This document shows, one piece after another, positions 17,553-25,154 of a DNA stretch of 49,948 bases. Where the stretch lies: contig CAJWYM010000017.1 in NCBI GenBank assembly GCA_913049555.1, positions 1 through 49,948 on the forward strand. The letters run 5' to 3'. Position numbers and translations under genes: made by a program. Each line of letters begins with the position of its first letter. The first letter of the stretch is position 1. This DNA comes from an uncultured Opitutia bacterium. Its GTDB lineage: Bacteria > Verrucomicrobiota > Verrucomicrobiia > Opitutales > CAJWYM01. The notes beneath the pieces were generated by a model. It searched no databases. It saw nothing but the letters and a program-made list of their open reading frames with translations, and was not told where the DNA came from.

Positions 17553-19052
17553 ATGCATAAGATCTTTATACTCGTTGCAATGTTTCATTGTTGGTTCCTC
17601 CAAGCATCTATTTTCTCGGAACAAGCATTCCCTAAAACTCGCTTCATGAATACCGAGACAACCCTATTAGCTCCTGAGGTTCTCTATTCAACAAATATCA
17701 CTGATATAGAAACTTTAAATTCTTGGACAGCGATTGTCTCAGAGCTTGTGATGGAAATCGGAGAAATTCGAATCCCTCAGAATATTGCTATTTTTCAGAT
17801 CCTTTTATCGAATGACAGCACACCCAAAATCGAGATCATTACAGAAACTCCAATTTCTGAAGAATTATACAATGAATTTGAATCGACCCTAATGGCAATC
17901 ACACCTCCAGAGGTCAAAATCGGAAAGATGGCTTTCCGAATTTCTATTTGGCCTAGGTCTCTCTCCAAAAAAAGAGTGGATGCTCTTCATGATTCCATCA
18001 TTCCTCATCTACAATTCTCCATTGATCGCTTCCAAGAACTTTCTCTAAATGAGAAAATGCTCTATCTTGAAGAATGGTCAAAGATGGAAGCAATTCCTAT
18101 CTTGACAGAATATGCGAAAGTTCAGTTCCCAAAAAGTGAAGGAATCAAAAAGCTGGTCGCTTTTATAGAAAAACACAAAAAAAATTCAATCATTCCTTTT
18201 CTAGAATATGCCCAAACAAATCCTCTCTATTGGAGATCTGTTTTTGAGATGCCGGCAGACTCACCCCTTGCTCCTACCCTTGAGCTTTTATCTTATGCGA
18301 GCAATGGATCTTTGGATATTACTAAAAGACTTCTAAACATCACTTTGCCTTTTTCCTCGATCCAGAAACCCAGCGGATATTATCTAGATCAACTAGCCAC
18401 TTATCTCCAATTAATCCAGCAGGATCTCGCTTATGAGATCCATGAAATTCGAGGATTGAAAGAAGCTAAAAAGTTGGAGGAAGCCATTGAAAATGCAGAA
18501 TCTTTACTGACCTCCATTCCTGGCCAACCGATGCTTCTTCATGAGTATATTCAACTCAATATCTTAAAAAGACAAAGCAGTGGAGAAGACGTAAGCCTCC
18601 AGAACATTTTAAGCCCAGAACTCGAGAGACAATTGTATCAGAAAGACCCCTTTTTTATTGGATCTACTGTGATCCGAAATGCTCGCGATGCTTACAATCA
18701 TATTAAAAGAAATGAAATCAATTCCCTCTTCAAGACTCCGGAAAAGTATCGTGAAAATCTTTTAGATCTTTCCATACTCTGTCTAGACTTAAAAAGTTGG
18801 CACTTTGCGGCCCATTTATTTCATCGTTCTCTCTATTATACGGAAAGCAACCCTGAACAAATGCAAGCGATTGTTGCCTATTTCCTTTACAGCTTGGAAC
18901 AAATGAATATCACTGATTTCAAATCCAACTTCCCTGGAGACCATTTGGAGTCTTTTGCAAATATTCATCAAGAACTCACCGAAAAATTTGAATCCTCAGA
19001 GGTTTATCGAGGATTTCAAGGAGTCCATGAACTTCGCCCGGATCAAAAATAG
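17553..19052 (+). CDS. Exported protein of unknown function
   Basis: I do not recognise a family for this 499-aa protein. Residues 1-20 (MHKIFILVAMFHCWFLQASI) look like a signal peptide cleaved near QAS-IFS. The rest is soluble, rich in E, L, I and K, and largely helical. The C-terminal third (about 300-470) has spaced Leu/Ala/Tyr patterns such as EEAIENAESLLTSIPGQP and DLKSWHFAAHLFHRSLYY, reminiscent of TPR-like helical repeats. The ATG at 17553 follows TAAAAT (17541-17546) by six bases with no Shine-Dalgarno, so the transcript may be leaderless. It is followed by the SIS gene 66 bases on, same strand. Confidence 0.7.
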   Translation: MHKIFILVAMFHCWFLQASIFSEQAFPKTRFMNTETTLLAPEVLYSTNITDIETLNSWTAIVSELVMEIGEIRIPQNIAIFQILLSNDSTPKIEIITETPISEELYNEFESTLMAITPPEVKIGKMAFRISIWPRSLSKKRVDALHDSIIPHLQFSIDRFQELSLNEKMLYLEEWSKMEAIPILTEYAKVQFPKSEGIKKLVAFIEKHKKNSIIPFLEYAQTNPLYWRSVFEMPADSPLAPTLELLSYASNGSLDITKRLLNITLPFSSIQKPSGYYLDQLATYLQLIQQDLAYEIHEIRGLKEAKKLEEAIENAESLLTSIPGQPMLLHEYIQLNILKRQSSGEDVSLQNILSPELERQLYQKDPFFIGSTVIRNARDAYNHIKRNEINSLFKTPEKYRENLLDLSILCLDLKSWHFAAHLFHRSLYYTESNPEQMQAIVAYFLYSLEQMNITDFKSNFPGDHLESFANIHQELTEKFESSEVYRGFQGVHELRPDQK

Positions 19053-19118: not shown

Positions 19119-20828
19119 ATGACTCCAAGAGAAAAAGCAGAACAGTTTATTGAAGAAGATAAAAAATTTAGATTGGGAGGACTGATTACGGAGCAATCTC
19201 ACCCAATCACTCGGAATTTATCCGATGCTCTTAAAAAATCGATTCCTTCAGGTCTTAAAAAACTCTTAGACGTTGATTTAGAAACCCTCCCAATCCTAAA
19301 AGAAATATTTGAGAGTTCCAAATTTACCGAACTCATTCAAGATCTGCATAGCACCTTAAAGTCAGGGGGCCGAGTCTTTTTTACGGGTTGTGGAGCTACG
19401 GGCCGTTTGAGTATTCTTCTAGAATCTTCGTGGCGAGAGGCTTGCAAAGAAAATACGTTGCTTACTCGTTATGAAAACCAACTCTTCAGTATCATGGCAG
19501 GAGGAGATTATGCTCTCATCAAGTCTGTCGAGGGCTTTGAAGATTTTACTAATTTTGGGAAAGAGCAGATCCGATCTTTTTCTTTGACCTCTAAGGATAT
19601 GGTTGTGTCGATTACGGAAGGAGGGGAAACTTCTTTTGTGATTGGAACTGCTTGGGCAGGGGTAGAAGCTTCAGCAAAGACTTGGTTTGTTTATAACAAT
19701 CCAACAGAGTTGCTTTGCCAAACCGTTGAACGATCCTGCAAAATAATCCAAAATCCCTCTGTAAAATCTTTAGATTTAACAACGGGACCGATGGCAATCG
19801 CTGGTTCTACAAGAATGCAAGCGACCACTGTAGAGCTTTTAATTATTGGTTCTGCCCTAGAATGCTGTCTTCATAAATTACTCCAAAAAAGTTTCTATGC
19901 TCCTGCAACATTCTATAAAATTTACAAAGACTTATTGCTCTCTATTCAAGAGAGTGACAACTTATTAAAACTTGCCAAGATTACAGAAAATGAGGCTTGT
20001 GTTTTCAGTCAAGGGGGGACGGTTACTTATTTGGCGAACTATGGTTCATTGGATTTATTAACAGACACCACTGAAAGAGCCCCCACTTTTAGTATTCCTT
20101 CCTTCCGCAAAAAAAGAGATCGAACAGCGCCCCTTCCATTTTGTATTTTAAAAGATCCATGCCGCAACAACGAAGAGACATGGGAGCATCTATTACAAAG
20201 ACCCATTCGAGGAATTGACTGGGTTCAATCGGATTATCAAAGAATGAAAGCCCCTAACTTCATGATTGAAAACCCACCCTTTTTAAGCCGAGAAAGCTTA
20301 TTAGAGTATCCAATGGACTCTGAAGAAGACAAGACTCGCAATCAGAAAAATAGAATTTCTCTACTCACGCATTTCTTAGTGGAGTCTGATTTCTCTCAAA
20401 ACGCAAAAATTCTTCAAACCGATAAATCTTGGTTTCAACACTTCTCCAATAAGAATTCCATGATCGTTCGGTCTAAAATCCTGAACAATGATTTACAATC
20501 TGGAGATCATAGCTTACAAATCTCTTATCCTGGAAGCTCGCTCCGACTCTGGGAACATTTAAGTGCCAAGTTAATCTTGAATACCCACTCTACAGCTTGC
20601 ATGGGACTTGCTGATAGAATTCAAGGGAATTGGATGATCCATGTTCAAGCAACCAATAAAAAACTGATAGATCGTGCCAGTCGACTCATTGCAGATCTAG
20701 GAAAGATCTCATACTCAGAGGCTTGTATTCGACTTCACGAATCCATAGAACTCATAAGTCACTTCCCACCCGAAAAAGCAAAACCCTCCCCAGCATGGTT
20801 TGCACTCCAGCAACTCCATTCAGCGTAA
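19119..20828 (+). CDS. SIS-domain protein, MurQ/GCKR-like
   Basis: This 569-aa protein has the motifs of the N-acetylmuramic-acid-6-phosphate etherase family (MurQ) and its relative, glucokinase regulatory protein. FFTGCGATGRLSILLESSW (about 87-105) is the SIS sugar-phosphate loop. MAGGDYALIKSVEGFEDF (about 127-144) and VSITEGGETSFV correspond to the etherase region. TTGPMAIAGSTRMQATT (about 222-238) matches the conserved GSTR motif. MurQ is only about 300 aa. The extra C-terminal 250 residues contain a second, degenerate SIS-like half, so the layout is closer to GCKR. Bacterial members of this long form are not well characterised. It may bind or cleave a phosphorylated amino sugar in peptidoglycan recycling (inference). 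Its 3' end overlaps the convergent glycine-zipper gene by 9 bases. Confidence 0.75.
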   Translation: MTPREKAEQFIEEDKKFRLGGLITEQSHPITRNLSDALKKSIPSGLKKLLDVDLETLPILKEIFESSKFTELIQDLHSTLKSGGRVFFTGCGATGRLSILLESSWREACKENTLLTRYENQLFSIMAGGDYALIKSVEGFEDFTNFGKEQIRSFSLTSKDMVVSITEGGETSFVIGTAWAGVEASAKTWFVYNNPTELLCQTVERSCKIIQNPSVKSLDLTTGPMAIAGSTRMQATTVELLIIGSALECCLHKLLQKSFYAPATFYKIYKDLLLSIQESDNLLKLAKITENEACVFSQGGTVTYLANYGSLDLLTDTTERAPTFSIPSFRKKRDRTAPLPFCILKDPCRNNEETWEHLLQRPIRGIDWVQSDYQRMKAPNFMIENPPFLSRESLLEYPMDSEEDKTRNQKNRISLLTHFLVESDFSQNAKILQTDKSWFQHFSNKNSMIVRSKILNNDLQSGDHSLQISYPGSSLRLWEHLSAKLILNTHSTACMGLADRIQGNWMIHVQATNKKLIDRASRLIADLGKISYSEACIRLHESIELISHFPPEKAKPSPAWFALQQLHSA

Positions 20829-21359
20829 ACCCTGTTGAGATTCCAATTCCTCGATTCTGGCTTTTGCCTGAGAAAGTCTCAATTGGGCAGCCCTCAAATC
20901 TCTAGATCTTTGCAAGGAGATTTCTCTTTCCTTTTGTTTCGCAGCTATTGTTGCCTCTGCAATTGCTAAGTCCGTTTGTATCAACCCTAAATCCTCTTCA
21001 CTGACTACCTGAGACAACCTAGCATCCAAACGCTCCTGTTGCTTTCTAGCCTCACTTTCTTCCAATCGAGCTAAGTCCGCCAACTCTTTTTGATAAGCCA
21101 TAGAAGCAGCCAATTGCTCTTCTTCCAGCTCAATCCTCGCTCTCTCAGCAGCATATCCACCTGAGTATCCCGCCAATCCACCAATCGTAGCACCCAATTG
21201 AGCTCCAGCATTGGACTCTCCACTCTGGTGTCCGATCATAGAGCCTATCAACGCGCCTCCGAGAGCTCCCCAAACAGCAGATTCCTCTTTTGTTATATTG
21301 GTGCAGGATACACAGCCTAAACTAAAGGGGACAAGGAGGAGGGCAATCATGAGTTTCAT
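20820..21359 (-). CDS. Glycine-zipper envelope protein
   Basis: This 179-aa protein has an N-terminal signal (MKLMIALLLVPFSLGC), with cysteines at about 16 and 19, suggesting a lipoprotein signal though the lipobox is not classical. Residues 28-70 form a glycine-zipper: ALGGALIGSMIGH, then AGAQLGATIGGLAGYSGGYA. From about 72 on it is a long charged alpha-helical coiled coil rich in E, A, L, R and Q. Similar proteins sit in the outer membrane or periplasm, but their function is poorly defined. It is convergent with the SIS gene and divergent from the channel operon that follows. Confidence 0.7.
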   Translation of the reverse strand: MKLMIALLLVPFSLGCVSCTNITKEESAVWGALGGALIGSMIGHQSGESNAGAQLGATIGGLAGYSGGYAAERARIELEEEQLAASMAYQKELADLARLEESEARKQQERLDARLSQVVSEEDLGLIQTDLAIAEATIAAKQKEREISLQRSRDLRAAQLRLSQAKARIEELESQQGLR

Positions 21360-21570
21360 TCATTAACAATACTTTTATTGACAAAAAGTGCAAGAGAATG
21401 ATCAGATTCAATCCTAAGATAACTATAAAAAGCAAGCGTAAGAAAAAAGATGGATGCGAATTGATTTTAAAATCCAGTTCTTTACTCCATCTTGATTGGA
21501 GTTTCATCCAGTTCTTTAAAATGCATTTTTTCTTCAGAGCATTCGAAATCTGTGATAAACTAGGAGTTCC

Positions 21571-22431
21571 ATGAGTTTAAAAGATAAAGAAGAGGGCTTT
21601 TTTACCCCATTTACAATGGTCCGATTACTCGGACTTTTATTTTCAATTTTGATCATCGCATTCTTTTACAGTGCTTTGATAAGACCCTCTGCCGAACAAT
21701 TTGAAATAGCATCCAAATACGGGGTTGAAGAAGATGCAGGTTCCTTTGGCAAATTAGCGGTAATTCTTAAAGACTACGAACAGCAAGCTTGTTTCACACT
21801 AATGCTTTGGGTTTTTTTAATTTTGGGTTACAAATATCTATTAGCTCATTTAGAAGAAAGGGCTTTGAAAAGGATTCTGACAAAAACAGATTCTGAAAAT
21901 GTATTTCATTACACAAAAACGGGAAGAATTGTAAAACAACAAGCTCCCGAATTGTTGACACAAATACAATCTGAAATTCAAAGCAATCCAACCATGCACA
22001 ATAAGCTGCTCCCCCATTTAATTGTGAAAGGTCTCCAACGTTTTATCAGCACCCATTCCGTTCAAGAATCCTCTGACATGATCAAAGGTAGAATTGATGT
22101 AACAGCAGAAAGGTTGGAATCAGAACTTTCAATCGTTCGCTACATTGCGTGGGCGATCCCCTCCATTGGATTTATTGGAACCGTTCGGGGAATTGGGGCT
22201 GCTTTGTCAAAAGCCGAGATGGCCCTAGAAGGAGATATTAGTGGGGTCACAAACTCTCTCGGTCTCGCTTTCAATTCAACCCTCGTGGCCCTTTTTATAA
22301 GTATCTTCCTGATGTATTTTATTCACCTTGTTCAATCCAAACAAGACGGTCTAATATTGACTATTGAGACCTTTTGCAGAGAGCAACTGATTGATCGCCT
22401 GGAGATCTTCAGCGCCCCTTCAAAGCAATAA
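21571..22431 (+). CDS. MotA/TolQ/ExbB-family proton channel subunit
   Basis: This 286-aa protein has the MotA/TolQ/ExbB signature in its C-terminal half: IAWAIPSIGFIGTVRGIGAA (about 191-210), then VTNSLGLAFNSTLVALFISI (about 228-247), the two channel-lining helices. Earlier helices lie at about 17-38 and 72-90 and flank a cytoplasmic helical region. Family members form pentameric inner-membrane channels that use the proton or sodium gradient together with a partner that supplies a membrane aspartate. No tolR/exbD gene follows. Instead the next two genes encode VWA proteins whose N-terminal helix carries such an aspartate. The start ATG at 21571 has a good ribosome binding site (AGGAG), one of the few in the window. 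Confidence 0.88.
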   Translation: MSLKDKEEGFFTPFTMVRLLGLLFSILIIAFFYSALIRPSAEQFEIASKYGVEEDAGSFGKLAVILKDYEQQACFTLMLWVFLILGYKYLLAHLEERALKRILTKTDSENVFHYTKTGRIVKQQAPELLTQIQSEIQSNPTMHNKLLPHLIVKGLQRFISTHSVQESSDMIKGRIDVTAERLESELSIVRYIAWAIPSIGFIGTVRGIGAALSKAEMALEGDISGVTNSLGLAFNSTLVALFISIFLMYFIHLVQSKQDGLILTIETFCREQLIDRLEIFSAPSKQ

Positions 22432-22461
22432 GCGTATATAAAAATTAGAACCTCTCCATAA

Positions 22462-23505
22462 ATGGCTCGAAAGAAAAAGACCCCTCTTGAGATATTCAGT
22501 CTTTCATTTTTGGATTGTATCTGTTGTGGCTTCGGAGCTGTCATCTTGATTTTTGTTCTAACTACCGGTCAGGCTCTGGAAATAAAGGAATTTTTTTTAG
22601 AACATTCAAGCGAACAGGTAAACAAGCTTGAAAAGCAATTGGTTGAAAGGCAAGGGGAGCAATCACAGATTCTTCAGGAATTGGAAAAACAGATCCAAAA
22701 TCAAGATCGCCAAATCTCCCAAGAAAAAAAACTCGACGGATTATTAGTCCAAAAAAAAGAAGCAGAAAAAAAACTCGACGGATTAAAAACTTTAGATCGC
22801 TTGAAAAGTAAAGAAATGCAAAGTCGGGAAAGAATTCTGGATGAATTCAGCACTACAGATCAAGTCCTCCCAACTTACCTAACCCATTTCAGCACCCAAG
22901 GGGATCGCATCATTTTACTATTTGAATGCTCAGGAGGGATGCTTGGCGAAACGATTTATGAGGCCTTGGACAATCTTAAAAAAACTCCTGTGGAGCGACT
23001 GGAGTCTAAAAAATGGAAGAGAACAAAAAAAGCCGTTGCAACGCTCCTCACTTTCTTGCCCAAAGAGAGTTCATTTCAACTGATTGGATGGAATCAGTCG
23101 CTGACTCACTTTCCAATTTCGGACGAATCTCCATCATGGAATGAAGTCAAAAGTAAAAAAATAAGAGACCAGATCGCCTCGGATCTAAAAGATTTTCAGG
23201 CTCAAGGAGGGGCAAATCTTGAACAAGCCTTGCACTATGCGAACCAGCAAAACCCGGACAACATAATCCTCATTACTGATGGTCTACCCACCCTTGCCAA
23301 CCGCTACAAGCCAAACCGAGAGGTCCATGAAAAGGACCGATTACGAATGCTGGCACTTGCAAAGGAAAGAATCTCCAAGAATATACCCATAAACATACTA
23401 CTTTTACCTATGGCTGGAGATCCAGGAGCTGCTGCTCATCTTTGGCAACTCTCAAAGAGTCATAGAGGTTCACTGATTACTCCCTCACAAGATTGGCCTG
23501 AATGA
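22462..23505 (+). CDS. Membrane-anchored coiled-coil VWA protein, degenerate MIDAS
   Basis: This is a 347-aa protein. A basic N-terminus is followed by one membrane helix with the motif SFLDCICCGFGAVILIFVL (about 15-33). Asp18 stands at the start of the helix, like the essential aspartate of ExbD, TolR and MotB. Residues about 45-125 form a Gln/Glu/Lys-rich coiled coil. The VWA-like domain runs from about 147 to the end. Its metal site is eroded: the usual DxSxS reads ECSGG, though IILITDGLPTL is kept. The gene follows the channel gene by 30 bases and overlaps its paralogue by 4. I infer that it is a stator-like partner of the channel with a periplasmic VWA head; no family name is known to me. 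Confidence 0.78.
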   Translation: MARKKKTPLEIFSLSFLDCICCGFGAVILIFVLTTGQALEIKEFFLEHSSEQVNKLEKQLVERQGEQSQILQELEKQIQNQDRQISQEKKLDGLLVQKKEAEKKLDGLKTLDRLKSKEMQSRERILDEFSTTDQVLPTYLTHFSTQGDRIILLFECSGGMLGETIYEALDNLKKTPVERLESKKWKRTKKAVATLLTFLPKESSFQLIGWNQSLTHFPISDESPSWNEVKSKKIRDQIASDLKDFQAQGGANLEQALHYANQQNPDNIILITDGLPTLANRYKPNREVHEKDRLRMLALAKERISKNIPINILLLPMAGDPGAAAHLWQLSKSHRGSLITPSQDWPE

Positions 23506-24488
23506 AAAGAAAAAAAACATTGGATGGATTCAACCTCTCATTCATGGATTGTATCTGTTGTGGATTTGGGGCCATCATCCTTCTTTTTGTACTGACTGTA
23601 GGACCGATTAAGAAGACGCTAGAAACAAAAAAAACCGGTGTTCAAGATTATCTAGACCAAATAACAAAAGCATTGGGGATTCTAGAATCTCAATTAGAAG
23701 GGGACAAAGCCAAAATAAAGAAAATAGAATCAGCGAATACGAACCTCTACTCAAAAGAAATCATTCAAACATTCGAGGATTTAAGTGAGCTTGAGGCCCA
23801 AATCTCAAGCATTGAAAAAAAACTGGAGGATAAACAAAATCGAATTGATGAAATCGCCTTGAAAATGAGTCTACAAACCATTCCCTCTTCAAAATTAAAA
23901 GATACTTCCCCGGTTGGAGTTACCACAGAAAGTGATCACGTTGCATTCTTGATAGATACTTCTGGAAGTATGAGAACCCCTCTTGGGCCAATCCAAAGAT
24001 CCGTATTGAATCAAATAGAGAAAATCTTAAATGCCTACCCGAAAGTAAAGGGTTTTCAGATCTTGGATACCTATGGGAACTATATACTTTCTGGAACAAA
24101 AAAAAATTGGATTCCAGACTCCCAACAAAATAGAATGAGGATTGTCCGAGCATTGCAAAATTATCCACTGGCCAGTATCAGTGACCCGAGCCCAGGATTA
24201 TTAAGATTCTTTAAAGATTACAAACAAGACCTTTTATCCGATAAAAAAATCGGACTTTATATTTTTGGGGATGAATTCCCGAATGTGACCTCAAAAGTTC
24301 TTAAAAGAGTTCAACAATGGAACCCGAAAGATCCGACAACAGGGAAGCATAAAGTGACAATCAATGCCGTTGGATTTCCATTCCGTCTAGAAAACCCTCT
24401 TCAGGCAAACCAGACCGGTTATAAATTCGCTCACTTGATGAGACAGCTCACTCATCAAAACGGTGGAGCATTTATGACTATAAATTAA
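23502..24488 (+). CDS. Membrane-anchored coiled-coil VWA protein, intact MIDAS
   Basis: This 328-aa paralogue of the preceding gene has the same layout. The helix motif SFMDCICCGFGAIILLFVL (about 13-31) carries Asp16. A coiled coil runs over about 40-125, followed by a VWA domain. Here the metal-ion-dependent adhesion motif is complete: FLIDTSGSM (about 147-155), and IGLYIFGDEF is the later acidic strand. The Lys/Arg-rich first six residues put the N-terminus in the cytoplasm, so the VWA head should be periplasmic. It overlaps the upstream VWA gene by 4 bases (ATGA), suggesting coupled translation and a heteromeric pair. The ligand is unknown. Confidence 0.8.
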   Translation: MKRKKTLDGFNLSFMDCICCGFGAIILLFVLTVGPIKKTLETKKTGVQDYLDQITKALGILESQLEGDKAKIKKIESANTNLYSKEIIQTFEDLSELEAQISSIEKKLEDKQNRIDEIALKMSLQTIPSSKLKDTSPVGVTTESDHVAFLIDTSGSMRTPLGPIQRSVLNQIEKILNAYPKVKGFQILDTYGNYILSGTKKNWIPDSQQNRMRIVRALQNYPLASISDPSPGLLRFFKDYKQDLLSDKKIGLYIFGDEFPNVTSKVLKRVQQWNPKDPTTGKHKVTINAVGFPFRLENPLQANQTGYKFAHLMRQLTHQNGGAFMTIN

Positions 24489-24494
24489 AATAGA

Positions 24495-25154
24495 ATGTTT
24501 TTTAAAAAAGAAATTTCACTGCTATGTTTTGTATTCTCAATTGTTACAGGCACTGCATCTGAAAAGCTAGCCTCCTTCAAAATTCATACCTATGAACCTT
24601 TAGAAGCGCTTTATTATTTTCCAGGTTCTGATGTAGAAAAAACTGAAGCGACCCAGATCAATCTTTCTGCCGCCTCCTTTTCTAAATCGTTCTTTTATCC
24701 AATCCAAAAGGATCTAATTTTTTACAGAAAGGGAAATACAAAATGGATCCCATATTCTAAATGCAAACTTAAACAGGAATCTCTTTCCCATTTTGTAGTT
24801 ATTTTCAATAAAAAAAATTCTAGTGAAAAGTGGAAACAAGCCAGTGTGATTGTTCATGAATCCAGAAAAACAGATTCCTGCTTATCCATCCTTAATTTTT
24901 CGAATATCCAACTTCAGGGATCTGCAAATCGACTAAAATTCTCATTGAATCTGGATGAGATTCTTTACATACCCCTCCAAAAAGTCACTGACTTATCTTT
25001 GGGTTTAAAAACAAAGAAAAAACAAAAATGGATCATTGCACACAAAAAAATGTATCATCCTGTAGCGAATAAAAATTCTGTCCTTTTACTGTTTCCTCCA
25101 TTACTCAAAGGTTCTGGAGCTCTATACAGTCGGCTGTTGCCGATTGACAATTAA
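24495..25154 (+). CDS. Secreted protein of the channel-VWA operon
   Basis: This is a 219-aa protein without a family I recognise. The N-terminus (about 1-22, KKEISLLCFVFSIVTGTAS) is a signal peptide. The mature part is basic and predicted mostly beta, with lysine-rich turns. It begins 6 bases after the second VWA gene and is the last gene of the operon. It is convergent with the Nudix gene, 3 bases away. By position it is probably a periplasmic partner or substrate of the VWA proteins, but nothing in the sequence proves this. Confidence 0.6.
   Translation: MFFKKEISLLCFVFSIVTGTASEKLASFKIHTYEPLEALYYFPGSDVEKTEATQINLSAASFSKSFFYPIQKDLIFYRKGNTKWIPYSKCKLKQESLSHFVVIFNKKNSSEKWKQASVIVHESRKTDSCLSILNFSNIQLQGSANRLKFSLNLDEILYIPLQKVTDLSLGLKTKKKQKWIIAHKKMYHPVANKNSVLLLFPPLLKGSGALYSRLLPIDN

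Follow-up and report, generated by a model that had tools for sequence, protein, structure and literature searches.

Flagella, gliding, nutrient uptake and the upkeep of the outer membrane draw their power from proton-driven 5:2 motors, and GldL-GldM (the gliding/T9SS motor) and ZorA-ZorB are motors of this type in which the periplasmic partner has become specialised. A recent study (PMC12204202; Mol Biol Evol 2025) predicts a further motor, composed of a TolQ-like channel and a pair of transpore-helix vWA (TPH-vWA) proteins, with no TolR or ExbD. According to the available text of that study, these TPH-vWA/TolQ-like motors, which represent its second vWA family (Idiomarina type), occur mainly in Proteobacteria and Verrucomicrobia, and AF3 models of the complexes put the aspartate of the helix inside a ring of threonines; that text reports no phenotype for them. 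Its first vWA family (Tichowtungia type) consists of TolA/TonB-like transducers, characterised by SHLS/His helices and the presence of a tolR-like gene pair.

The window analysed here, a stretch of 49,948 nucleotides from an uncultured Opitutia bacterium, contains a further example of the paired-VWA motor already in print as a prediction in the available text of PMC12204202. The coordinates (Table 1) confirm the four genes that a sequence-only reading of the window had placed in one operon: a channel gene (Q), two VWA genes (V1 and V2) with reading frames that overlap by 4 bases, and a secreted ORF. The intergenic region upstream of Q probably contains divergent promoters for the operon and for the glycine-zipper gene on the opposite strand. 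Further upstream, a 569-aa protein (19119-20828, + strand) resembles by eye a two-domain SIS protein or N-acetylmuramic acid 6-phosphate etherase.

Table 1. Coordinates of the Q-V1-V2 operon and its neighbours in the window, and of one Hsp70-like gene at a related locus.
Feature	Position	Strand	Remarks
Q, MotA/TolQ/ExbB-like channel	21571..22431	+	286 aa; PF01618 6.1e-16
V1, transpore-helix VWA protein	22462..23505	+	347 aa; Asp18, degenerate MIDAS (ECSGGM)
V2, transpore-helix VWA protein	23502..24488	+	328 aa; Asp16, intact MIDAS (DTSGSM)
Secreted orphan protein	24495..25154	+	219 aa; transcription unit shared with Q-V1-V2 by position
Glycine-zipper, coiled-coil lipoprotein-like gene	20820..21359	-	divergent from Q operon; PF13488, PF05433
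Intergenic region, 211 bp	21360..21570		between divergent glycine-zipper gene and Q operon; from coordinates
Hsp70-ATPase-like protein with FHA-like C terminus, example	L107:4453-5940		between Q and V1

Q belongs to the MotA_ExbB family, scoring 58.8 bits against the PF01618 profile (cut-off 22.9). It possesses an extra N-terminal transmembrane helix, and its hydropathy profile comprises three hydrophobic peaks and a GFIGTV pore helix. The two threonines of the signature GTVRGI...AFNST (Thr204 in GTVRGI and Thr237 in AFNST) are invariant in 36 of 36 Q sequences and line up with the pore threonines in the known structure of TolQ. The window genome (G000, 3.1 Mb) has twelve MotA_ExbB genes, including a MotA-like gene (C35), and nine ExbD genes. 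Where its other MotA_ExbB genes contain a GTV motif, this takes the form GTV[TSLWN]G, without the arginine of GTVRGI, and the combination of GTVRGI and AFNST is found in Q alone. Q also matches the PADLOC profile of ZorA weakly (3e-5), as does the whole channel family; the Zorya defence system ZorAB, in which ZorA has a long cytoplasmic tail, was rejected as an identity for the locus because the 286-aa Q is similar to ZorA at the family level only and V1 and V2 do not match ZorB. The partner proteins of GldL-GldM and ZorA-ZorB have folds that differ from those of V1 and V2.

V1 and V2 are paralogous (phmmer, about 1e-14) and share one architecture: the motif SF(L/M)DCICCGFGA after a basic tip, an N-in helix with one aspartate, and a C-terminal VWA domain. 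The N-terminus of V1 reads SFLDCICCGFGA and that of V2 reads SFMDCICCGFGA, with Asp18 and Asp16, respectively, opening the sole hydrophobic segment of each protein; the basic tip, the shared motif and the position of the aspartates at the start of the helix had been described correctly in the sequence-only reading. The helix aspartate is invariant in 42 of 42 V1 sequences and in 42 of 42 V2 sequences. Chance is far from explaining these features: the genome has no exact site of the motif besides those of V1 and V2, and other phyla possess the same module. AlphaFold models of V1 (mean pLDDT 84.5) and V2 (mean pLDDT 82.3) each comprise a single helix of about 100 residues (16-118 and 13-123, respectively), a disordered linker and a confidently predicted VWA fold (best VIA Z of 17 for V2). 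The Pfam VWA match is weak (2e-5 for V1, 0.12 for V2), and the nearest solved folds to the heads, according to Foldseek/VIA, are the VWA domains of inter-alpha-inhibitor (ITIH1) and of calcium-channel alpha2delta. Within the coiled-coil part of V1 (22727-22785), the 17-base stretch AAAAACTCGACGGATTA is present twice, 42 bases apart, as if 14 codons had recently been duplicated in frame.

Like ExbB-ExbD, TolQ-TolR and MotA-MotB, the locus combines a MotA_ExbB channel having two pore threonines with an N-in partner helix that carries an aspartate near its cytoplasmic end. Unlike ExbD, TolR and MotB, the partner consists of two different proteins, each having a long rod that bears a VWA head but no ExbD domain, and neither V1 nor V2 matches the ExbD/TolR profile (PF02472), which places them outside that family. 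Homology of the transpore helices to those of ExbD is not claimed, since profile comparison performed no better than it did with control transmembrane helices; thus the resemblance to ExbD rests on the position of the aspartate. To judge from these comparisons, the V helix may be at most ExbD-like in function. V1 and V2 are like the TolA/TonB-like vWA transducers, as far as the available text of PMC12204202 describes them, in having a transmembrane helix, a linker and a vWA head and in being encoded beside motor genes, but unlike those transducers they have no SHLS/His helix (inspection of both helices revealed neither a histidine nor an SHLS motif) and no tolR-like gene pair, and are not members of that family. 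With the TPH-vWA/TolQ-like motors of the same text, on the other hand, the locus shares a TolQ-like gene, a heterologous pair of vWA proteins tethered by transmembrane helices, the transpore aspartate, the threonines of the predicted ring and the lack of tolR/exbD; the co-occurrence of the parts, the aspartate in a helix without SHLS and the C-terminal vWA fold likewise identify V1 and V2 as TPH-vWA proteins.

Phylogenetic analysis places all V1 proteins in one clade and all V2 proteins in another, reciprocally monophyletic and with support of 100/100. Each clade contains sequences from Verrucomicrobiota, Kiritimatiellota, Pseudomonadota, Thermodesulfobacteriota and Myxococcota, indicating that the pair arose by an ancient duplication of which both copies have been kept, the pattern expected of an obligate heterologous pair. 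The two heads differ in their metal sites. The D-x-S-x-S of the V2 MIDAS is kept in 42 of 42 sequences, whereas the position of the first MIDAS aspartate in 42 V1 sequences is occupied by arginine (18), glutamate (13), aspartate (10) or threonine (1). The aspartate is retained in V1 of Proteobacteria and Kiritimatiellota and replaced in Opitutales, and V1 of the window has glutamate in its place, plus GGM. V1 and V2 may therefore pair as a heterodimer in which one head grips the ligand and the other supports it.

The sequence-only reading had made its proposal, in which the VWA proteins are stator partners that replace ExbD, depend on the co-occurrence of the VWA helices with the channel gene in other genomes, and this was found consistently. 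Scanning 84,980 species genomes detected at least 549 relatives of V2, and the best 80 of these, which constitute the named loci, belong to Verrucomicrobiota, Kiritimatiellota, Gammaproteobacteria, Thermodesulfobacteriota and Myxococcota. Among these best 80, Q is immediately upstream of V1-V2 in 70 of 70 testable loci, the other 10 beginning less than 200 bases from a contig end and being too short to show Q. Within the phylum, 388 genomes include 23 with V2 and 24 with a member of the Q subfamily (E of 1e-87 or better; the next level of matches, at 1e-38, is clearly apart), and the latter include all 23 V-bearing genomes (hypergeometric P 3e-36, shared descent not corrected for). In the sole Q genome without V (G347), Q lies 263 bases from a contig end. 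Three genomes (G008, G321 and G184) have Q and V1-V2 unlinked or on separate contigs and have retained both. The operon of G008 is split, according to its locus pair, into Q and the Hsp70-like gene on L178 (C10) and V1-V2 on L073 (C13). G183 carries V1 on one contig and V2 on another (L089 and L090), which was counted against the best explanation. An ExbD profile search of about 108 loci detected no ExbD in any of the operons, in agreement with the earlier observation that the operon of the window has no tolR/exbD gene; a single match, at L106, is about 4 kb from the V1-V2 pair.

Many related loci contain an additional component. A gene of 350-510 aa is located between Q and V1 in 56 of the 80 named loci (the best 80 of at least 549 relatives). 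Its family profile matches the ATPase domain of DnaK/Hsp70 (PDB 2v7y, 8.7e-12), an FHA domain is recognisable at the C terminus of some members (7e-13), and the phosphate-binding loops, as read from the alignment, look degenerate. No copy of the gene was detected anywhere in the window genome, from which it has been lost, or in the Coraliomargarita-like genomes tested, whereas positive-control genomes matched at 1e-113 to 1e-171. These absences indicate that the Hsp70-like/FHA protein is a common but dispensable cytoplasmic component. A 499-aa gene of the window (17553-19052) was considered as the missing Hsp70-like gene and rejected, as it has no match to the family.

The gene divergent from the operon lies outside the range that the sequence-only reading covered. 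Its product matches the glycine-zipper families PF13488 (1.4e-5) and PF05433 (1.7e-5), and the lipobox of the window copy is approximate. Of 46 Verrucomicrobiota loci, 43 have a homologue upstream of Q in divergent orientation, with a median gap of 184 bp, as against none of 21 loci outside Verrucomicrobiota. On the basis of this distribution the gene is probably a conserved neighbour of the operon, and its lipoprotein-like product is a candidate outer-membrane partner of the machine. A DUF4136-like lipoprotein follows in 32 loci, and Gammaproteobacteria have two other lipoprotein-like genes after V2 instead; together with the glycine-zipper gene, these neighbours suggest an outer-membrane target. 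Upstream of Q in L158, L132 and other loci outside Verrucomicrobiota, PEGA-like repeats and a C terminus like that of sulfatase-modifying factors were noticed by eye, and TPR/PEGA-like membrane proteins also recur near the module in non-Verrucomicrobiota loci. The secreted protein encoded by the fourth gene of the operon has no Pfam match. The sequence-only reading had assigned it to the machine, which was not supported, as none of the related loci encodes a relative; it is probably a local addition.

The locus quite probably encodes an inner-membrane proton motor in which Q is the channel, V1-V2 take the place of an ExbD/TolR pair, and the VWA heads are driven. A pentamer of Q would form a proton channel of the ExbB/TolQ/MotA kind in the inner membrane, and its pore would be occupied by a heterodimer, formed by the N-terminal helix of one V1 and that of one V2, giving a 5:2 assembly in which the pair of ExbD, TolR or MotB is replaced. 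The single proton-binding aspartate of each helix would face the threonine ring of Q, and proton flow would turn or shift the V1-V2 pair, the coiled-coil rod, which is about 80 residues or roughly 12 nm long, passing the movement to two periplasmic VWA heads and the force being directed, presumably, at the outer membrane. The V2 head would grip a ligand via its metal site, with the V1 head as a largely non-metal partner, and in Verrucomicrobiota the likeliest ligand would be the glycine-zipper lipoprotein. The stator proposal of the sequence-only reading, for which a prior prediction is in print, thus appears correct as far as can be judged from sequence, in view of the co-occurrence, the invariant aspartate and threonines, the lack of exbD in the operon and the published AF3 models in the available text of PMC12204202.

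Other functions of the same genes have to be weighed against this motor. It is quite unlikely that V1 and V2 are TolA/TonB-like transducers bound to the side of a Q-ExbD complex, with ExbD supplied from another locus: side-bound vWA transducers do exist as a separate family in the available text of PMC12204202, and ExbD might act in trans, the genome having nine ExbD genes of which one (C33) has no ExbB nearby, but the histidine and SHLS hallmarks of side binding are missing from the V helices, which have an invariant aspartate instead, and ExbD was never in the operon across about 108 loci. Q might alternatively be a proton or ion channel gated through the VWA proteins, which would act as sensors, such that a ligand bound to the VWA heads opens the pore and the Hsp70-like/FHA protein reads the signal in the cytoplasm. 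This arrangement would account for the Hsp70-NBD-like protein, in some cases with a clear FHA domain, that most relatives encode between Q and V1, and for the MIDAS of the VWA domain, a classical ligand-binding site; it is nevertheless unlikely, given that the Hsp70-like protein is dispensable and that the rod and the paired aspartates are kept, as in force-producing relatives. As many VWA proteins are assembly factors, the pair could also be one that uses Q as a membrane anchor with no energy coupling, but a mere anchor would not need pore threonines and helix aspartates that are invariant over several phyla, which makes this function highly improbable.

An extension of the proton motor to a machine of five parts is possible, although rather doubtful. 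It would consist of the Q pentamer, an obligate heterodimeric V1-V2 rotor with heads of unlike function (a metal-binding grip and a non-metal partner), control by the Hsp70-fold/FHA protein in most lineages, and a dedicated outer-membrane glycine-zipper lipoprotein that is pulled in Verrucomicrobiota; the cytoplasmic regulator would dock on the basic tips of V1/V2 or on Q.

Relative to the available text of PMC12204202, the genome-level co-occurrence, the ancient split of the V1 and V2 paralogues, the asymmetry of their MIDAS sites, the Hsp70-like/FHA gene and the divergent glycine-zipper gene are new. The published prediction is backed here by independent genomic evidence and extended by some likely additional parts, among which the glycine-zipper lipoprotein and the Hsp70-like/FHA protein are concrete candidates for the target and the regulator that the prediction, in that text, lacks. 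If the asymmetric VWA rotor is real, the force-delivering partner of such motors would be exchangeable wholesale. In the possible five-part extension, the energised heterodimer with its cytoplasmic regulator and its target would constitute an undescribed kind of Ton/Tol-like system.
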